From Acidovorax sp. RAC01 (GTDB lineage Bacteria; Pseudomonadota; Gammaproteobacteria; Burkholderiales; Burkholderiaceae_C), in contig NZ_CP016447.1 in assembly GCF_001714725.1 (NCBI RefSeq), positions 682,001 to 746,000 of the forward strand: DNA of 64,000 nucleotides. Direction: 5' to 3'. A model generated the notes under the pieces. The model saw only the letters and a program-made list of their open reading frames with translations. It did no database searches and was not told the DNA's origin. Made by a program: the position numbers and the translations under genes. Shown piece by piece: positions 4,749 through 53,412 of this stretch; the stretch's first letter is position 1, and each line of letters opens with the position of its first letter.

Positions 4749-5369
4749 ATGGACTATCCCGGAAATCTCATCGTAGTGGCCGCCCCCAGCGGCGCTGGCA
4801 AATCCAGCCTTGTGAAGGCCTTGCTGGAACTAGACTCGCACGTCCACCTGTCGATCTCGCACACCACGCGGGCGCCTCGCGGCCAGGAAAAGCATGGGCG
4901 CGACTACTACTTTGCATCCCAGTCCGAGTTCGACGCCATGATCGAAGGCGGCGCATTTGTGGAGTGGGCGCTGGTGCACGGCAACCGCTACGGCACATCC
5001 AAGAAAGCCATCGAGGAGCGTATCGCCCAGGGGTCCGACGTGATCCTGGAAATCGACTTCCAGGGCGCCCTGCAGATCCGCGAGGCATTTGCCAACGCCA
5101 TCCTGGTGTTCATCCTGCCGCCAAGCTGGGAAGAACTGCGCTCGCGCCTGGAGCGCCGCGGCGAGGACTCACCCGAGGTGATCGAAGTGCGCCTGAAAAA
5201 CGCCGCCACCGAGATGGCACAGGTCGCCAAATTCGACTTCGTTATAATCAATGAGTTGTTTGAGCGCGCCCTTTTCGATCTGAAAGCGGTAGTCCACGCC
5301 CAGCGACTCAAGTACGCCGCCCAGCGCCGCGCCCGAGCCGACACTTTTCAGTCGCTCAATATCACCTGA
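4749..5369 (+). CDS. gmk: Guanylate kinase
   Basis: Guanylate kinase phosphorylates GMP to GDP with ATP and is essential for GTP, dGTP and ppGpp supply. The P-loop APSGAGKSS is at residues 12-20. The GMP-binding [19 protein letters not shown] follows at about 37-55, with EIDFQGA near residue 100. The length of 206 residues is typical. It is 35 bp downstream of yicC and 17 bp upstream of rpoZ, so the three genes form one transcription unit. Position next to rpoZ and spoT is the classic guanine-nucleotide/stringent-response neighbourhood. Confidence 0.98.
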
Positions 5370-45766: not shown

Positions 45767-47584
45767 TCAGCCCGCGGCCTTCACGCCATCGGGGTTGCGC
45801 AGGCGGATGTGCAGTTCGCGCAGCTGCTTTTCGTCCACGGGGCTTGGCGCCTGGGTCAGCAGGTCCTGCGCGCGCTGTGTCTTGGGGAAGGCAATCACGT
45901 CACGGATGGACTCGGCACCCGTCATCAGCGTGATCAGGCGGTCCAGGCCGAAGGCCAGACCACCATGCGGGGGCGCGCCGTACTGCAGGGCATCCAGCAG
46001 GTAACCGAACTTGGCCTTGGCGTCCTCGGGGTTGATCTTGAGCGCGGTGAAAACCTTGCTTTGCACGTCTGCGCGGTGGATACGCACGGAGCCACCGCCC
46101 AGCTCCCAGCCGTTGAGCACCATGTCGTAGGCCTTGGCAAGGCACTTGCCCGGATCGGTATCCATCAGGTCCTCGTGACCATCCTTGGGGCTGGTGAAGG
46201 GGTGGTGCACCGCGGTCCAGCGGTCTTCTTCCTCGTCGTGCTCGAACATGGGGAAGTCCACCACCCACAGTGGCGCCCAGCGGTTTTCGAACAGGCCGTT
46301 CTTCTTGCCGAACTCGCTGTGGCCGATCTTGAGGCGCAACGCGCCAATCGCGTCGTTGACGATCTTTTCCTTGTCTGCGCCAAAGAACAGCAGGTCACCG
46401 TCTTGTGCGCCCGAGCGCTTGAGCACTTCGGCCAGCGCAGCGTCGTGAATGTTCTTGACGATGGGCGACTGCAGGCCATCGCGGCCCTTGGCCAGTTCGT
46501 TGACGCGGATGTAGGCCAGGCCCTTGGCACCGTAGATCTTGACGAACTCGGTGTAGGCGTCGATCTCGCCGCGGCTGATGCCGCCGCCTTCGACCGAACC
46601 GCCCGGCACGCGCAGGGCCACCACGCGACCACCCTTCATGTTGGCAGCGCCCGAGAACACCTTGAAATCCACGTCCTTCATCACGTCGGTCAGCTCGGTG
46701 AACTCGAGCTTCACGCGCAGGTCGGGCTTGTCAGAGCCGAAACGGTGCGCGGCTTCCTGGTACGTCATGATCGGGAATTCGCCCAGATCCACGCCCAGCT
46801 GGGTCTGGAACACCTCGGCGATCATGCGCTGAAAGATGGCCCGGATTTCCTCTTCACCCAGGAACGAGGTTTCGCAGTCGATCTGCGTGAACTCGGGCTG
46901 ACGGTCGGCACGCAGGTCTTCGTCGCGGAAGCACTTGGTGATCTGGTAGTACCGGTCGTAGCCCGCCACCATCAGCATCTGCTTGTACAGCTGGGGCGAC
47001 TGGGGCAGTGCAAAGAAGTGGCCGTCGTGCACGCGGCTGGGCACGAGGTAGTCGCGTGCGCCTTCGGGCGTGCTCTTGCCCAGCATGGGCGTTTCGATAT
47101 CGATGAAGCCTTCCTTGTCCAGGAAGTTGCGCACCTGGATCGACGTCTTGTAGCGCAGCATCATGTTGCGCTGCATGTGCGGGCGGCGCAGGTCCATCAC
47201 GCGGTGCGTGAGGCGCGTGGTTTCCGACAGGTTCTCGTCGTCCATCTGGAACGGAGGCGTGACCGACGGGTTGAGCACGTTCAGCTCGTGGCAAAGGACT
47301 TCGATCTTGCCGCTCTTGAGGTTGTCGTTGGTCGTGCCGTCGGGGCGGGCGCGCACCAGGCCCTTGACCTGCACGCAGAACTCGTTGCGCACCTCTTCGG
47401 CCACCTTGAACATCTCGGCACGGTCAGGGTCGCACACCACCTGCACGTAGCCTTCGCGGTCGCGCAGGTCGATGAAGATCACGCCGCCGTGGTCGCGGCG
47501 ACGGTTCACCCAGCCCGACAGGGTTACGGTTTGGCCCAGGAGGGCTTCGGTCACAAGACCGCAGTAGTGGGAACGCATGGCCAT
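45767..47584 (-). CDS. aspS: Aspartyl-tRNA synthetase
   Basis: AspRS charges tRNA-Asp; in betaproteobacteria it is usually the non-discriminating type that also charges tRNA-Asn. The OB-fold anticodon domain starts [48 protein letters not shown], class II motif 2 is [25 protein letters not shown] and motif 3 is [28 protein letters not shown]. The bacterial insertion (GAD) domain is between. 605 residues is typical. Two Met codons (1 and 3) are possible starts. Confidence 0.98.
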
Positions 47585-48263: not shown

Positions 48264-48602
48264 TCAGTTCGTCGTTGTGGTGGAAGAAGTGCCGCCAGCG
48301 CTTGCTGCACTTGCGCTAGGCGCTTCTTTTTTAGGAGCATCTGCGGTGCTTGCAGCTGCGCTGGAATCGGGCTTGGCATCCGCCTTTGCGTCGGTCGCCG
48401 GGGCCGCCGTGCCACCGCTTCCGCCGCGGAAATCCGTCACATACCAGCCTGAGCCCTTGAGCTGGAAGCCGGCCGCAGTGACCTGCTTGGAAAAAGCCTC
48501 GGCACCGCAGGCAGGGCACACGGTGAGCTGGGGATCGGAGATTTTTTGCAGCACATCCTTGGCATGGCCGCAGGAGCCGCATTTGTAGGCGTAAATAGGC
48601 AT
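48264..48602 (-). CDS. FmdB-type zinc-ribbon protein
   Basis: A 112-residue FmdB/CxxC_CXXC_SSSS family protein. The N-terminal zinc ribbon has CGSCGH and CPACGA pairs (MPIYAYKCGSCGHAKDVLQKIS...VCPACGAEAFSKQ), and a disordered Ala/Ser/Asp/Lys tail follows. The function is unknown; the family often lies ahead of DUF502 and aspS. It is the first gene of this minus-strand run, and the 3' end of the group II intron lies about 30 bp upstream of its ATG. Confidence 0.92.
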   Translation of the reverse strand: MPIYAYKCGSCGHAKDVLQKISDPQLTVCPACGAEAFSKQVTAAGFQLKGSGWYVTDFRGGSGGTAAPATDAKADAKPDSSAAASTADAPKKEAPSASAASAGGTSSTTTTN

Positions 48603-48665
48603 GTCAGCGTATGGAGGGAAAGTGGGAGGGTAGGGACAGCCCATTACTGGACCATCCCCCCCTAA

Positions 48666-48699
48666 GAACCGTGCGTGCGACTTTCACCGCACACGGCTC
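48666..48699 (-). ncRNA. Group II intron domain V
   Basis: A 34-base hairpin on the minus strand, GAGCCGTGTGCGG then TGAAAGT then CGCACGCACGGTTC. The pairs GAGCCGT/ACGGTTC at the base and the AGC-like catalytic triad position plus GAAA-type apical loop are those of a bacterial domain V. It is 45 bases after the stop of the intron protein. Confidence 0.9.
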
Positions 48700-48743
48700 A
48701 AGCACAACTTAGTCCAGCAATAAGCAAAACACGCGATTTTACT

Positions 48744-50474
48744 CTACGCGCCTTTCTTATCCTGAACCCTAAGCCTTGTTGAGGCCGGCTTCGCGACCGG
48801 CAACCCAAGGGCATGCAACCTCTGATGGCACACCGGGTGCAGGAGCACCCGGTTAGACATAGCGTCCGACCCGCCATTCACCTTGTAAACAATGTGATGA
48901 TCGTGCCAACCGCCTTCATGATCGAGCGGTTCTGTGCAGAGTGCACAGCGCCCGTCCTGGGAGATATACAGCATTGACGCTTCGTAACGATGGCGCAGGC
49001 TCTTTGCCGTGCGTTTCGTCCGCAACATCTCTCCATACTCCTCCCAGACAGGATCAAAGGGGTTGTAGTCTCCTTTGATCTTTTCATGCCTTTCAATCAC
49101 TGTGTCGCTTAATCGCGCCAACCGTTTCATGATCGGTTCGTCTTCTGTACCTACTTTGGCTGCGAACTCTGTCCTTTCACCAATGACCTTCCAGTAACGT
49201 TGGGTGCACCAGCTTGGGGATTTCTTCGGATGTCGCCTCCTCGCCCAGCGGACAAGCCGCCAGTAGATGAGGTAGTCCATCCGACTGAACGTCTCTTTCG
49301 CGACCACCGGTTGGTGATACCTAGCCCATCCCCGAAGGATTGGGTTAAGTTGCGCGATGAGATCCTCCTGTTTTGTCGATAGATGCGTCCTTACGATTTC
49401 CGATACCTTGCGATAGAACGCTTTCACGTTTTTCTTGCTCGGCTTGATTAGCAGCTTTCCACGGTATTTGCGGAAATTCCATCCAAGGAAATCGAAGCCT
49501 CGGTCAATGTGCGTGACGCAGGTCTTTTCCAGCGATAGCCGCAGTCCTCGTTTTGCAAGGAATGCTTCTACCCATGGTCGGACTTCAATCTCTAACAGCT
49601 CTCGTGAGCTCCCAGTGATGACGAAGTCGTCCGCGTAGCGGACCACATTTACTTTGGCTCTACGGGCTTTCACAACACCCAGCCGCGCGTTTAAGTGCGC
49701 GGCGAGTCCCGTTTCCAACCCATTCAGAACGCAATTCGCCAGGGTTGGCGAAATGACACCACCTTGCGGTGTTCCCTCATCTGTCGGCGAGATGCGACCC
49801 TGATGGACCACTCCGGCTTTCAACCATTTCCGTAGCACTTCCCTGTTCATGAGAACACGGTCGAGCATCCAGTCATGGTTGATATGGTCGAAGAACCCCT
49901 GAATGTCGGCTTCCAGTACCCATTCGGCCGAGGCCTTCTGGGACAAGGAAACGAACAACTGGCTCATGGCATCGTGCGTTGAGCGCCCAGTCCGAAAGCC
50001 GTAGCTGTTCGGGTCGCTGGTGCTCTCTGACACTGGTTCCAATGCCAGTAGGAACAACGCCTGCATGGCCCTGTCAAACATGGTCGGAATGCCAAGCGGC
50101 CTTTCCTTCCCGTTTGCTTTGGGAATGTAGACCCGCCGCAAGGGCTGCGGTTTGTACCCTCGAAGATTCTTCAACCGACCGATCGCCGCCCATTTGGAGG
50201 CAGGCGAATCCCAAAGTTCGCGATCGACGCCACTCGTTCGTTTGCCTTGGTTTTCGGTCACTCGTCTCACGGCCAGCGCTCTGGCCGAGAACGAGTGAGT
50301 TAGAGACCTTTGCAGCGCTTTCACGCGGCGCCAGTCTTTTTCTTGCGTAGCCTTCGCTAGACGGGTCTGCGTCGTCCGCACGTTCCGCGCCACTAGACCC
50401 CAATCGATGGAGTGCCAGTCTTGCGGTTCGCGTGAGGACGCAGACTCGTCGCGCGAAGCGACGTGTTTTCTCAT
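48744..50474 (-). CDS. ltrA: Group II intron-encoded reverse transcriptase/maturase
   Basis: A 576-residue multifunctional intron protein. The start at 50474 has GGAGG 5 bases upstream; the frame continues upstream without homology. The reverse transcriptase domain includes QGGVISPTLANCVLNG and the active-site RYADDFVI near residue 280. The maturase X domain follows (LNPILRGWARYHQPVV). The C-terminus is an HNH endonuclease domain with CALC, DHHIVYKVNGGSDAMSNRVLLHPVCHQRLH (about 505-560). Thus RT, maturase, D and En parts are all present, and the protein should support both splicing and retrohoming. Confidence 0.95.
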   Translation of the reverse strand: MRKHVASRDESASSREPQDWHSIDWGLVARNVRTTQTRLAKATQEKDWRRVKALQRSLTHSFSARALAVRRVTENQGKRTSGVDRELWDSPASKWAAIGRLKNLRGYKPQPLRRVYIPKANGKERPLGIPTMFDRAMQALFLLALEPVSESTSDPNSYGFRTGRSTHDAMSQLFVSLSQKASAEWVLEADIQGFFDHINHDWMLDRVLMNREVLRKWLKAGVVHQGRISPTDEGTPQGGVISPTLANCVLNGLETGLAAHLNARLGVVKARRAKVNVVRYADDFVITGSSRELLEIEVRPWVEAFLAKRGLRLSLEKTCVTHIDRGFDFLGWNFRKYRGKLLIKPSKKNVKAFYRKVSEIVRTHLSTKQEDLIAQLNPILRGWARYHQPVVAKETFSRMDYLIYWRLVRWARRRHPKKSPSWCTQRYWKVIGERTEFAAKVGTEDEPIMKRLARLSDTVIERHEKIKGDYNPFDPVWEEYGEMLRTKRTAKSLRHRYEASMLYISQDGRCALCTEPLDHEGGWHDHHIVYKVNGGSDAMSNRVLLHPVCHQRLHALGLPVAKPASTRLRVQDKKGA

Positions 50475-50838
50475 GCTTTCCTCCAGGTTGAACCCCTGGA
50501 GACGCACACCTCCCCCGAAGGGGAATTGCATCCCTTCGGGGTCAGTTTGAACTTAGTCAGTCGTGTAACGACGATTGCACCACGCGGAAGTCAGCACGCT
50601 TTCGCGTCAGGGCACGGGCCCCTATGCCACCCATTACAGGTAACCATTCGCTTTCTCCGCTATCCCATACCCCCTCATCCAACAGGTCGTCTCGCGACTT
50701 CCCTGCCCTTGCGCAGAGCGCTTGGGCGGACAGTGGGGCTTACCACGTTCCCTGCCTTGCCGACGAATGACAACTTGCGTTGTTTACGTCTATCCGTTTA
50801 GGGCTCATCTCTCCAGGGGCTGCATGTGTGACGACGAA

Positions 50839-50857
50839 CACCTAGTTTTGACAGGTG
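50839..50857 (-). other. Candidate EBS1 hairpin of the intron
   Basis: Minus strand CACCT-GTCAAAACT-AGGTG: 5-bp stem, and the 9-base loop contains CAAAAC, the exact complement of the GTTTTG that precedes the proposed 5' splice site. This is the arrangement expected for exon-binding site 1 in domain I. Confidence 0.7.
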
Positions 50858-51311
50858 ATGCCAGCAGCGGACCGTTTGGTTACGGCCTATCAGCAGATTT
50901 GGCCGCTCAATTGTTACCCTGGTTCAAACGATGATTCACTTATGTTGCCCATGCGGAACTAGCCTAGCGTCCTATATCACCTCTGCTGGCGATGGTCCTG
51001 ACGCCCCCCTCGCAGGGGACCCCAGCCGTGTTACGGGGACGCATTGTCGAGCGGGCTTCACACGGAGACGTTACCGTCCCCGCATGCCACTCTAGGCTAC
51101 TCATGGTCGTACAAGAGGTCACAGCACTTCGGACGAAGGTGTGACAAGGCAAAACAGAGCAGAGCACTCTGAGAGTCAGAGATGCGCAGCGCAATTTACA
51201 AGGTGACCAATCCGTGGACGGATTTGGTCATCCCATTGGCGAGTTCCGCTTGTGGCGGACTCGTCGGCAAGTTGCGCGAGCGCCACAGACGGCATCACTG
51301 CCGCGATGAAA

Positions 51312-51501
51312 GCAGGTTTAACCCTGCATTGCAGTCGGTTTTACCCGCTGCAATTATCAAAACCGCAACTAGGTTGCGGTCTGTAGAGGACCGTTTTACC
51401 GGCTCTCAATCTCTAAATAAAAGCACCGTAAGTGCTTGATTTAATTGCTAATTATTTAGTGAGGCTAGCTACCTCTCTCAGAGCAACACGTTACGTGTCG
51501 C
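51312..51501 (-). other. Cluster of six short hairpins at the 5' end of the intron
   Basis: Successive palindromes on the plus strand: GCAGG-TTTAAC-CCTGC (51312-51327), GCAGTCGG-TTTTA-CCCGCTGC-type (51331-51351), CCGCAAC-TAG-GTTGCGG (51363-51379), GAGGACCG-TTTTAC-CGGCTC (51385-51405), AAGCAC-CGTAA-GTGCTT (51421-51437) and ACACG-TTA-CGTGT (51486-51498). Most loops have TTTAC/GTAAA. They may be an expanded domain I or an element inserted there. Confidence 0.65.
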
Positions 51502-51514
51502 ACCAAAACCCTCA

Positions 51515-51545
51515 ATTATAGGCGGCATGCCCCTGCGCAAGCCCT
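51515..51545 (-). promoter_or_regulatory. Candidate promoter of the fmdB-aspS run
   Basis: Minus-strand TATAAT (51515-51520) is a perfect -10 box. The nearest -35 like sequence, TTGCGC, is 14 bases upstream, which is short. Transcription would start at about 51508-51510, only about six bases before the proposed intron 5' end. A stem-loop at 51541-51558 (GCCCTGC-ACCG-GCAGGGC on the minus strand) lies between it and the symporter stop. Confidence 0.5.
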
Positions 51546-51558
51546 GCCGGTGCAGGGC
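51541..51558 (-). terminator. Stem-loop after the symporter gene
   Basis: A 7-bp perfect stem GCCCTGC/GCAGGGC with a 4-base loop, 8 bp after the symporter stop at 51566. No T run follows on the minus strand, so termination is only partly supported. Confidence 0.5.
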
Positions 51559-51565
51559 CCCGGTG

Positions 51566-53020
51566 TCAGGTGGGTGCACTGCCTTCGTAGTGCGTGACAT
51601 GGCCCTTGTGGTCGTCGATGAACTGGGGGGCCAGCGAGCCGGCCAGCATGCCCACGAGCGCGGCCAGCAGCCCGGCCAGCTGCTGCGGGAACGCTTCCGA
51701 CAGCATGGGGCTGGCCACAAACAGCAGCCAGACGCCCAGGCCCATCACCACGGCCAGCAAAGCCCCCTGGGTGGTGGCACGCTTCCAGTACAACCCGAAT
51801 ACCAGCGGCACGAAGGCACCCACCAGCGGCACCTGGTACGCACCCGACACCAGGTCATAGATGGACGTGCCTTGCATGGTGATGGCATACATCAGCACGC
51901 AGGCCGTGAACACCAGCACCGAGATCCGCATGGCCTTGAGCGTCTGCGCGTCGGTCATGCCCGGGCGCAGGTTGTGCAGGATGTTTTCGACGAACGTGGT
52001 GGACGGCGCCAGCAAGGTGGCAGATGCCGTGGACATGATGGCCGACAGCAGCGCGCCAAAGAAGGCCACCTGCAGCACCAGCGGCATGCGCTCCATCACC
52101 AGGGTGGGCAGCACTTTTTGCGGATCGTCCTTGAGCAGCGCCTGGGTTGCTTCGGGCATCACCAGCAGGGCGGCCGTCACGATGAACATGGGCACGAAGG
52201 CGAACAGCAGGTAGAGCGTGCCGCCGATGATCGGACCCTTGCGGGCGGTCTCTGCGCTGTTGGACGACATCACGCGCTGGAACACGTCCTGCTGCGGGAT
52301 GGAGCCCAGCATCATGGTGATGGCGGCAGCGAAGAAGAACGTCCATTCCTTCAGACCGCCCGTGGGGAAGAACTGGAACTTGCCCTCACGCGCCGCATAG
52401 TCGATAACCTTGCCCGCACCGCCTGCCAGATCAGCCGCGAACCATGCCACGGCAAAGAGGCCGACGGTAATAACGATCATTTGCACGAAATCCGTCATCG
52501 CCACCGACCACATGCCTCCATACAGCGTGTAGATCAGCACTACGGCCGTGCCGATCACCATGCCCATCGTGATGGACACCGCGCCTTGTGTCAGCAGGTT
52601 GAACACCAGGCCCAAAGCGGTGATCTGCGCTGCCACCCAGCCCAGGTAGCTGCACAGGATGACCGCGGAGCAGATCACCTCGATCACGCGGCCGTAGCGC
52701 TGGCGGTAGTAGTCACCCAACGTGATGAGGTTCTTGCGGTAGAGCTTGTAGGCAAAAAAGACGCCCACCAGGATCAGGCACATGGAGGCGCCAAACGGGT
52801 CCTCCACCACGGCGCCCAGGCCGCCTTCCACGAATTTGGCCGACACACCCAGCACGGTTTCCGACCCGAACCACGTGGCAAAGGTGGTGGCAATCACCAC
52901 TGCCAACGGCAGGCTGCGGCCCGCCACCGCATAGTCGGCCGTGTTGTGAACGCGCCGCGCGGCATACAGCCCCACGGCGATCGAGATCAGCAGGTACACA
53001 ACGATGAATGTCAACAGCAT
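51566..53020 (-). CDS. Sodium:solute symporter (SSS family)
   Basis: A 484-residue inner-membrane secondary transporter with about 13 helices. I start at 53020 (MLLTFIVVYLLISIAVGLYAARRVHNTADYAVAGRSLP), where the first helix begins. The SSS fold markers are GGMWSVAMTDFVQMIVI in the TM5-6 region and SSAxxxxxTASATLLAPSTTFVENIL. The middle GSIPQQDVFQRVMSSNSAETA also fits. The substrate (sugar, amino acid, proline-like or short carboxylate) cannot be inferred. It is upstream of the promoter that serves the aspS run. Confidence 0.9.
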   Translation of the reverse strand: MLLTFIVVYLLISIAVGLYAARRVHNTADYAVAGRSLPLAVVIATTFATWFGSETVLGVSAKFVEGGLGAVVEDPFGASMCLILVGVFFAYKLYRKNLITLGDYYRQRYGRVIEVICSAVILCSYLGWVAAQITALGLVFNLLTQGAVSITMGMVIGTAVVLIYTLYGGMWSVAMTDFVQMIVITVGLFAVAWFAADLAGGAGKVIDYAAREGKFQFFPTGGLKEWTFFFAAAITMMLGSIPQQDVFQRVMSSNSAETARKGPIIGGTLYLLFAFVPMFIVTAALLVMPEATQALLKDDPQKVLPTLVMERMPLVLQVAFFGALLSAIMSTASATLLAPSTTFVENILHNLRPGMTDAQTLKAMRISVLVFTACVLMYAITMQGTSIYDLVSGAYQVPLVGAFVPLVFGLYWKRATTQGALLAVVMGLGVWLLFVASPMLSEAFPQQLAGLLAALVGMLAGSLAPQFIDDHKGHVTHYEGSAPT

Positions 53021-53412
53021 GGCGCCGCTCCGAAGATCCAAGGGTGTTGCAAGAAAAGTGCGCACACGGTACCGGACTCGGTCTCTAGGTCCGGCGGCCT
53101 GCGCACAGCGGGGCTCGGCGCAAGCCAGGCTTACAGATTCAGGCGCAAAGCGGGTTTCGTGGATGGCCAGCGCATTACGCACGCAGCGCCACGCAGCCCA
53201 CCACCAGCCCCCCGATGCCTCCAGAACCTGCAGGCTCAGGACCCGCACCCAGTCCCTGCCACAAAACGTAACGAATAGCGCTGGGGATTATGAATGCAAC
53301 TTCCGGACCACGGGCGCAAGCCCGTTCCCGGCGAGGCACAAATCGTGTGGCGCGCGGCCCACAGCTACAGCGGGGCTGTACTCAGCCTCCAGGCTGTATG
53401 ACCCTGCCGCTT
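53021..53412. other. About 390 bp without a recognisable gene
   Basis: Between the symporter start and the ubiB end I find no convincing reading frame. It presumably includes the symporter promoter (minus strand) and the ubiB 3' end. GGGCGCAAGCCCG near 53315 is a small hairpin. No repeat of the two families described here is present. Confidence 0.6.

Follow-up and report, generated by a model that had tools for sequence, protein, structure and literature searches.

A group II intron located between a TATAAT box and a gene run that includes aspS raises the questions of how such an element comes to occupy this position and how it could splice from a transcript starting only a few bases ahead of it. 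In the window, i.e., the whole 64,000-nt stretch of Acidovorax sp. RAC01 DNA that was analyzed (contig NZ_CP016447.1, positions 682,001 to 746,000), the intron and its surroundings comprise the following features:

51566..53248, minus strand: sodium:solute symporter ORF, upstream and co-directional, start uncertain (domain scan of 51566-53170)
51515..51520, minus strand: -10 box TATAAT before fmdB-DUF502-aspS, conserved in all 28 intron-free leaders among the 30 fmdB loci read
48625..51503, minus strand: whole group II intron, 2,879 nt, both junctions fixed by empty fmdB leaders
50969..51118, minus strand: part of intron domains 1-4 (Rfam RF02012, group II D1-D4, 86.6 bits)
48744..50474, minus strand: intron-encoded protein, 576 aa, with RVT_N, RT (YADD), maturase, and HNH domains (open ORF and domain scan)
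48625..48701, minus strand: intron domains 5 and 6 (Rfam RF00029, 66.1 bits)
48264..48602, minus strand: fmdB (zinc ribbon), at the head of the run leading to aspS, start codon set by intron-free relatives
45767..47584, minus strand: aspS (aspartyl-tRNA synthetase), third in that run (ORF; name read from the sequence)

Boundaries and components of the intron

Matches to fmdB were obtained in 47 genomes, and 30 fmdB loci of the same genus, including the one in the window, were read; 28 of these leaders are empty and two are occupied. The empty leaders read ...TATAATTGAGGGTTTTG|CACTTTCCC..., fixing both junctions and indicating a precise insertion with no duplication or loss of target bases. The bases CCCTC (48629-48625) therefore belong to the intron, which begins with GTGCGAC at 51503 and ends with CCTACCCTCC; the GTGCG agrees with the 5' GUGYG of mobile group II introns, and the terminal CC departs from the usual AY. 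Since TATAAT is retained in all 28 empty leaders, it is no chance hexamer. A 98.5%-identical intron copy occupies the same fmdB site in another species, where the flanks are 75 to 83% identical, and the copy in genome G018 has the same boundaries and length as the window intron.

The preliminary description had correctly placed the 5' end at 51503 and recognized the run fmdB-DUF502-aspS (the names DUF502 and aspS come from reading the sequence rather than from a domain scan), but its 3' end, 48630, was 5 nt off. The perfect TATAAT that it noted is present, separated from the intron by 11 bases (51520-51515 to 51503) rather than about 12, and fmdB starts (at 48602) 22 nt, not about 30, after the intron 3' end. 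The native leader that it predicted, a join of 51504-51520 to 48600-48629, is wrong by those same 5 nt if taken literally and matches the empty leaders once the 3' boundary is corrected.

The intron is intact and present in one copy in the host genome. Its D5-D6 region lies at the 3' end, as in mobile group II introns, and the A at 48631, the seventh base from the 3' end, is the probable branch point, judging from the motif. The encoded RT-maturase matches TIGR04416 with 376.1 bits (cut-off, 300), and its closest solved relative by sequence is 6me0 (E value of 1.9e-165), which we take to be TeI4h. Recognition of the 5' exon by EBS1 and EBS2 and of the 3' exon by EBS3, all three located by covariation, is that of group IIB, and the upstream -10 box and the HNH domain are not those of class C (IIC) introns. 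A single-sequence fold, examined with regard to the domain 1 structure of group IIB, is as a whole no better than that of shuffled sequences (z of -0.33). The element is probably an active-looking IIB intron.

Survey of related copies

The survey began with 90 rows (the best 80 of 542 loci, 7 viral loci, the window, L002, and L003). From these, 11 groEL-stop rows, 12 others (L095, L100, L101, L125, L131, L133, and L139-L144), and nine with an unreadable 5' end (L097, L099, L108, L112, L113, L117, L120, L123, and L145) were left out, leaving 58 copies in 40 site clusters. The groEL-stop and "other" lists were drawn up by eye, and possession of a -10 box was no condition for membership of the 58. 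L004, which apparently belongs to the same contig as L061 (identical in length and junction), and L005, with a 51% identical protein, were kept out of the counts. Counts refer to this full set, except where an earlier set of 30 clusters is named.

A later sample consisted of 15 loci besides the window, with the EBS positions mapped by full re-alignment. All six lineage copies in it whose 5' end could be read, none identical to an earlier site, fit the pattern described below; four represent new sites, and the other two, L149 and L157, lie where L093 and L109 do. Among the others, L146 repeats L060, L153 is of the stop-codon type, L159 lies inside a tRNA gene, L152, L154, L155, and L158 have no -10 box at 4 bits, and L156 and L160 were left out of site assignment. 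In the protein tree, which covers 100 of 103 rows (L142, L143, and L145 were too short), 65 of the 73 rows of one group are of the promoter type; the same group holds six unreadable rows as well as L095 and L100, whose introns are inserted in a stop codon. Elsewhere, 628 E. coli genome records showed a related match, but every one was partial and fell short of 80% coverage; plasmids gave best identities of 60 to 80% in 22 records among at least 5,000; and viral contigs gave 7 loci with 46 to 53% identity, with no promoter-type site among the six whose 5' end was read.

Association with -10 boxes

A -10-like hexamer (at least 4 bits) precedes the intron at a gap of 9 to 13 nt in 38 of the 40 clusters, the hexamer being the best of five registers scored with a generic -10 weight matrix. 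In the earlier set it was found in 28 of 30 clusters, compared with 0 to 2 of 30 in 13 control windows. The best gap is 10 in 29 clusters, 11 in 6, 12 in 4, and 9 in 1. T1 is conserved in 39 of 40 clusters and A2 and T6 in all 40, and the box is on the intron's own strand in the 40 clusters. No enrichment of -35 elements was seen (2 of 40 clusters versus 0 to 4 of 40 in controls), and these sites are regarded as putative promoters on the grounds of their -10 box, their position relative to genes, and their conservation.

Base pairing with the target

The recognition elements of the window copy, whose EBS positions were found by covariation over the lineage, are as follows:

51513..51518, minus strand: IBS2 TAATTG, exon positions -15 to -10, pairs 6/6 with EBS2, one G-T wobble
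51504..51509, minus strand: IBS1 GTTTTG, exon positions -6 to -1, pairs with EBS1
50908..50913, minus strand: EBS2 CAATTG, intron nt 591-596 (covariation)
50845..50850, minus strand: EBS1 CAAAAC, intron nt 654-659 (covariation; hairpin loop predicted in an RNA fold with a whole-fold z of -0.33)
50811, minus strand: EBS3, the G at intron nt 693, paired with C48624 at exon +1 (covariation)

The first four bases of IBS2 coincide with the final four of the -10 box, and EBS2 also pairs with the next two; with a gap of 11 and 6/6 pairing of EBS2 to the box region, the window copy conforms to the proposed pattern of promoter homing. Full 5/5 pairing of EBS1 is seen in 37 of 40 clusters, against a shuffled mean of 2.8, and EBS2 pairs at least 5/6 in all 40 (shuffled mean, 16.1) and 6/6 in 28 (shuffled mean, 3.0). 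EBS3 pairs in 39 of 40 clusters (49% expected), and in 39 of 40 the register of EBS2 is identical to the offset of the box. All of these counts come from the same copies from which EBS1 and EBS2 were found.

Such a pattern could also be an accident of descent, in which a slowly evolving ATTG core of EBS2, combined with a TA preference of the protein, would read TAYAAT and hit promoters by chance in GC-rich genomes. The core is indeed ATTG in 24 of 40 clusters, and the missing -35 enrichment fits as well. This explanation, which we regard as quite improbable, is weakened by the 16 clusters with other cores, in all of which the site is still TAnnnT, and by the wide variation of EBS2 nt 1-2 and of EBS1 over the lineage. 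Boundaries, box association, EBS/IBS covariation with its box-following register, orientation, and neighbors can all be read from the sequences themselves, and we consider it likely that the window intron belongs to a IIB lineage whose home sites are promoters, with the -10 box read jointly by the RNP. The protein would probably take the first two bases (TA), EBS2 would pair with the other four and two more, and EBS1 would pair with the six bases that immediately precede the insertion, at about +1 to +6 if the start site is as expected.

One conceivable route to such a target is the open complex of RNA polymerase, in which the stretch between the -10 box and about +2 is unpaired on the non-template strand and sigma recognizes box bases T1, A2, and T6. 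The RNP could reverse-splice into this exposed strand, coupling homing to transcription: IBS2, spacer, and IBS1 span about the melted region, box and intron share one strand, and the most conserved box bases are those of sigma. However, the RNP would face competition from sigma for these bases, the same data are accounted for if the protein reads TA directly and EBS2 pairs with the rest, and the kept TA fits double-stranded targets better (cf. the consulted part of PMC2882425), making this route rather unlikely. It is similarly unlikely, if slightly less so, that the -10 element constitutes a further target class reached via the open complex, with EBS1, EBS2, and protein contacts used for DNA and EBS1 on a 3- to 7-nt exon used for splicing.

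Downstream genes and putative splicing from a short 5' exon

The genes downstream of the insertion sites are mostly housekeeping ones (e.g., pyrG, tRNA-Leu [by ARAGORN], guaB, secA, gltX, and hemB), and further families include ndk, argH, rimO, psd, ispB, ubiE, ribF, ahcY, dapA, and purL. Of 30 downstream proteins scanned, 27 match a family and three do not; in four clusters (L062, L073, L082, and L088), the downstream gene was left unnamed. At ahcY (L109), the intron adjoins an SAH riboswitch, which, along with two tRNAs far off in L079, was all that Rfam detected besides introns in 13 loci.

Sites at the 5' edge of named, mostly housekeeping genes are also what selection alone might leave behind, had the introns inserted wherever EBS1 and EBS2 matched and survived at transcript starts, where no gene is broken. 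Retention by selection is not fully separable from targeting, but a tolerated copy could sit anywhere in a leader or between genes, whereas the observed gap is 9 to 12 nt, the EBS2 register follows the box, and copies of the hemB type (see below) do interrupt genes; selection as the sole cause therefore appears very improbable. Under joint reading of the box by the RNP, insertion would leave the promoter intact and make the intron almost the first thing transcribed; a conserved promoter would then drive it, and the host gene would keep its start codon and most of its leader, a presumable benefit of such sites.

Because IBS2 lies inside the promoter, it would not be transcribed from that promoter, and splicing would therefore have only EBS1 and EBS3 to rely on, with a 5' exon of about 3 to 7 nt. 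The concern in the preliminary description that EBS2 would be without a partner in this RNA is thus supported by its pairing with exon positions -15 to -10, and this setting, judged by the shared register, is a habit of the intron lineage, more general than the window copy. The same concern about EBS1 was not upheld, as EBS1 can still pair: its partner (-6 to -1) is approximately what the promoter would transcribe from the expected start.

In one relative, the intron lies between the hemB start codon ATG and codon 2, and an nACAAT box is found just 5' of that ATG in 22 of 30 relatives (counted by eye). This split right after the ATG points to a minimal 5' exon being enough for splicing. Alternatively, the window copy might splice poorly, with expression of aspS driven from within the intron or from a start farther upstream. 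The unpaired EBS2, if transcription starts at the box, is in line with this, as is the symporter gene that ends 62 nt upstream of the intron and is a possible source of read-through. A consensus scan of 48400-51700 found no two-hexamer sigma70-like promoter there, a weak negative since the same scan also misses the conserved TATAAT at 51520, and the hemB arrangement would require a tiny exon to be spliceable; on balance, poor splicing of this copy is doubtful.

Comparison with other group II introns

According to the consulted part of PMC2882425, EcI5 and TeI4h are CL/IIB1 introns; the proteins of EcI5 and the T. elongatus introns read bases 5' of IBS2, including A-15, and in other introns such reading is needed for double-stranded but not single-stranded DNA. 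A-15 corresponds to box A2 at a gap of 10. The window lineage resembles EcI5 and TeI4h in its RT-maturase-HNH protein, its EBS1/EBS2/EBS3 recognition, and, putatively, protein reading just 5' of IBS2. It differs in that IBS2 overlaps a -10 box in nearly all 40 clusters, whereas that part of PMC2882425 describes homing sites defined by EBS/IBS pairing and no promoters.

For group II introns of bacteria, a 2015 review (PMC4424553), in the sections consulted, lists three target specificities, namely homing sites, terminators, and attC sites. Class C introns at terminators likewise use a gene-expression signal as the target, but at the other end of the gene and with a protein that lacks the En domain (same sections of PMC4424553); the window intron has HNH and no terminator target. 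The attC-targeting IIC introns share with the window lineage a target that is a class of elements rather than one gene, but no integron was seen at the window insertion site.

No promoter targeting by group II introns appeared in the literature titles and abstract openings that were listed (in one case 20 of 379), although a prior mention in Waldern et al. 2020, on genomic neighborhoods, is possible. The word "promoter" is absent from the main text of PMC8919778 and PMC3522654 and occurs once in PMC4424553, where the title of a cited reference concerns outward promoters of IIC introns. The -10 box appears to be a previously undescribed target type for these introns. If so, promoters would be a further target specificity, a mirror image of the terminator strategy, which would account for the ability of such elements to persist next to essential genes and would provide a natural system in which recognition of the DNA target is separate from recognition for splicing. 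It also opens to testing the minimum length of 5' exon from which group II introns can splice in cells and suggests a natural design for placing sequences just after a promoter.

The introns at groEL stop codons (11 loci in the main survey and one in the later sample, recognized by a GroEL-like end of the upstream frame) have related proteins, a GTGCGAC or ATGCGAC 5' end, and the 3' rule ..TACCCG in common with the window lineage. In contrast to that lineage, they occupy a stop codon at a gene end, where the window intron does not lie, and their proteins fall outside the promoter group in the tree.

Intron boundaries and occurrence in a second species

Comparison with fmdB loci of the same genus (30 loci fetched; 47 genomes matched) identified 28 empty loci carrying the sequence TATAATTGAGGGTTTTG immediately followed by CACTTTCCC, or a near variant, and 2 occupied ones, the window and genome G018. 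The empty loci fix both junctions of the intron and place its 3' end at 48625, so that the end at 48630 in the preliminary description was 5 nt too far upstream. The features of this region, all on the - strand, are as follows.

51520-51515, -10 box TATAAT
51503-48625, complete group II intron
51503-51119, ~385 nt of the intron 5' end ahead of the Rfam D1-D4 match
51437-51421 and 51171-51155, two terminator-like hairpins in the intron 5' region

The intron matches Rfam over part of domains 1-4 and over domains 5-6, and encodes a 576-aa protein with RT, maturase, and HNH domains; no second copy was found in its own genome. The distance from the intron 5' end to the protein is ~1030 nt, versus ~640 nt in short relatives. 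It is a known kind of element; among the titles and abstracts listed by literature searches, no earlier description of its target habit, promoter targeting by group II introns, was found.

The G018 intron is 98.5% identical to the window copy over 2879 nt, more than its flanks are to those of the window copy (75% and 83%), and the closer relative G030 (3' flank, 94%) has an empty fmdB site. These comparisons disfavor common descent of the locus and suggest that the intron arrived separately in the two species or was transferred between them.

Insertion behind -10 boxes

Two related introns of the same genus, located before pyrG (L003) and before tRNA-Leu (L004/L061), each lie behind another -10 box. 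These boxes are kept by leaders without the intron: an exact TATAAT is present in 27/30 pyrG leaders read (the others being the occupied L163, L182 from the window's own genome, and L185), and ATACAATCT precedes the tRNA in 29/30 tRNA-Leu loci; the remaining one, L205, carries an intron.

The genome collection was then scanned, and the best 80 of 542 matches were added as further loci. With junctions placed by intron-side motifs, 58 copies fall into 40 site clusters. In this sample, 38/40 clusters have a hexamer with a score of 4 bits or more whose end lies 9 to 13 nt before the intron, the remaining two having TACCCT (L082) and CACAAT (L110); 13 control windows farther upstream, scored on an earlier 30-cluster set, contained such a hexamer in 0 to 2 of 30. 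The link of the insertion sites to the -10 box is firm. No -35 enrichment was seen (2/40 clusters versus 0 to 4 in controls). The sites are probably used as promoters. Independent support for insertion at the transcript start comes from L109 (around 5266-5338), where an SAH riboswitch lies before ahcY and its 5' edge adjoins the intron 3' end; by sequence, L157 shares this site (24/25 bases).

The downstream proteins matched an NCBIfam family in 27/30 cases scanned, some of them with partial queries and scores under the curated cut-off; those of L063, L087, and L104 had no NCBIfam match. The other ten of the 40 clusters are listed separately in the table.

Table. Genes downstream of the introns
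NCBIfam matches: ndk, guaB, argH, rimO, zapD, nucleoside bisphosphate phosphatase, psd, acuI, secA, uvrC, amgK (two), secB, ispB (two), ubiE, gltX, ribF, ahcY, hemB, dapA, tcdA, grxD, cbiET, purL, ptsN, an aminotransferase
Ten other clusters, fmdB: window (family scan), L119 (by sequence)
Ten other clusters, tRNA-Leu: one cluster
Ten other clusters, by sequence: pyrG, rpiA (L096), the L072 gene again (L090)
Ten other clusters, downstream gene without name: L062, L073, L082, L088

One contig of Burkholderia sp. OK233 carries four promoter-type copies (L069, L078, L082, and L087) with differing EBS1 and EBS2, which looks like an accumulation of separate site-specific lineages.

Target recognition

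Comparison of intron positions with exon words for covariation revealed two pairs, intron nt 654-659 with exon positions -6 to -1 (EBS1) and intron nt 591-596 with exon positions about -14 to -9 (EBS2). With one copy per cluster, EBS1 forms 5/5 pairs in 37/40 clusters (shuffled mean, 2.8; maximum, 7), and EBS2 forms at least 5/6 pairs in 40/40 and 6/6 in 28/40 (shuffled means, 16.1 and 3.0), although these counts come from the same copies that revealed the sites and are not an independent test. In these copies, intron nt 693 (EBS3) pairs with exon +1 in 39/40 clusters (49% expected). The EBS/IBS pairing is firm.

IBS2 consists of hexamer positions 3 to 6 and the two following bases, and gaps of 9, 10, 11, and 12 nt between box and intron correspond to EBS2 register shifts of -1, 0, 1, and 2, with agreement in 39/40 clusters (exception, L073). 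The EBS2 core is ATTG in 24/40 clusters; in the 16 with another core, the box is still TAnnnT (16/16). Box bases 1 and 2 are unpaired yet conserved (39/40 and 40/40 clusters). PMC2882425 describes protein contacts at C-18, C-17, A-15, and A-14 for EcI5, at A-15 and C-16 for TeI4h, and at A-14 and A-15 for a TeI3c/TeI4c pair. By analogy, the box TA of this lineage is probably recognized by the intron protein.

A later search covered 399 genomes of the order and found 15 loci in addition to the window copy. Six of them were lineage members (protein 58 to 65% identical) whose 5' end could be read and which were not exact matches to any earlier site. In each of the six, a box lies at a gap of 9 to 11 nt, EBS1 and EBS2 form at least 5/6 pairs, and the register matches. 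Four of these sites are new, including L148, again before ribF by sequence; L149 and L157 repeat, in other genomes, the sites of L093 and L109. The five loci of this search with protein 53 to 55% identical and a readable 5' end lack a box at 4 bits, as does L159 (51%).

Predicted splicing from a short 5' exon

Transcription is expected to start 6 to 8 nt after the -10 box, which would leave an RNA 5' exon of ~4 to 7 nt in the window and ~3 to 6 nt in most relatives. The preliminary description proposed that EBS2, and perhaps EBS1, might then lack an exon partner; this holds for EBS2, as IBS2 lies upstream of the predicted start and would stay untranscribed from the box promoter, but EBS1 can still pair. 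We infer both the splicing of these introns and the role of their protein. Retention of the window intron need not be lethal, since fmdB and aspS have their own start codons behind it.

In L110 (a MAG contig), the intron lies between the ATG and codon 2 of hemB. Among 30 hemB loci fetched (79 genomes matched), an nACAAT box precedes the ATG by a few bases in 22/30 starts read in the family, as counted by eye; only 3/30 reach the 4-bit threshold because CACAAT scores 3.9. Judging from these sequences, hemB mRNA looks leaderless in many Comamonadaceae, in which case production of HemB from L110 would need splicing from a very short exon, barring another hemB copy. L104/L106, L122, and L151 resemble L110 in having the intron right after an in-frame ATG of the downstream gene, behind a -10-like box. 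The more distant same-family intron L159 (genome G212, contig C59) lies within the anticodon arm of a tRNA-Gly(CCC) gene, its flanks being recognized as a tRNA once joined, so that production of this tRNA would depend on splicing.

Phylogeny

In a quick midpoint-rooted tree of 100 intron proteins, one group of 73 (SH-aLRT, 99) contains 65/65 promoter-type rows, two stop-codon rows, and six with an unreadable 5' side, and 12/12 groEL stop-codon rows fall outside it. A single origin is not established by the tree, since the target label requires 8 changes (a minimum of 4 by starred branches) and there are flags for long branches. In the two stop-codon rows inside the promoter group, L095 and L100 (Lysobacteraceae), the intron interrupts the stop codon that follows the gene end ..LNVQN, a change of target type within that group.
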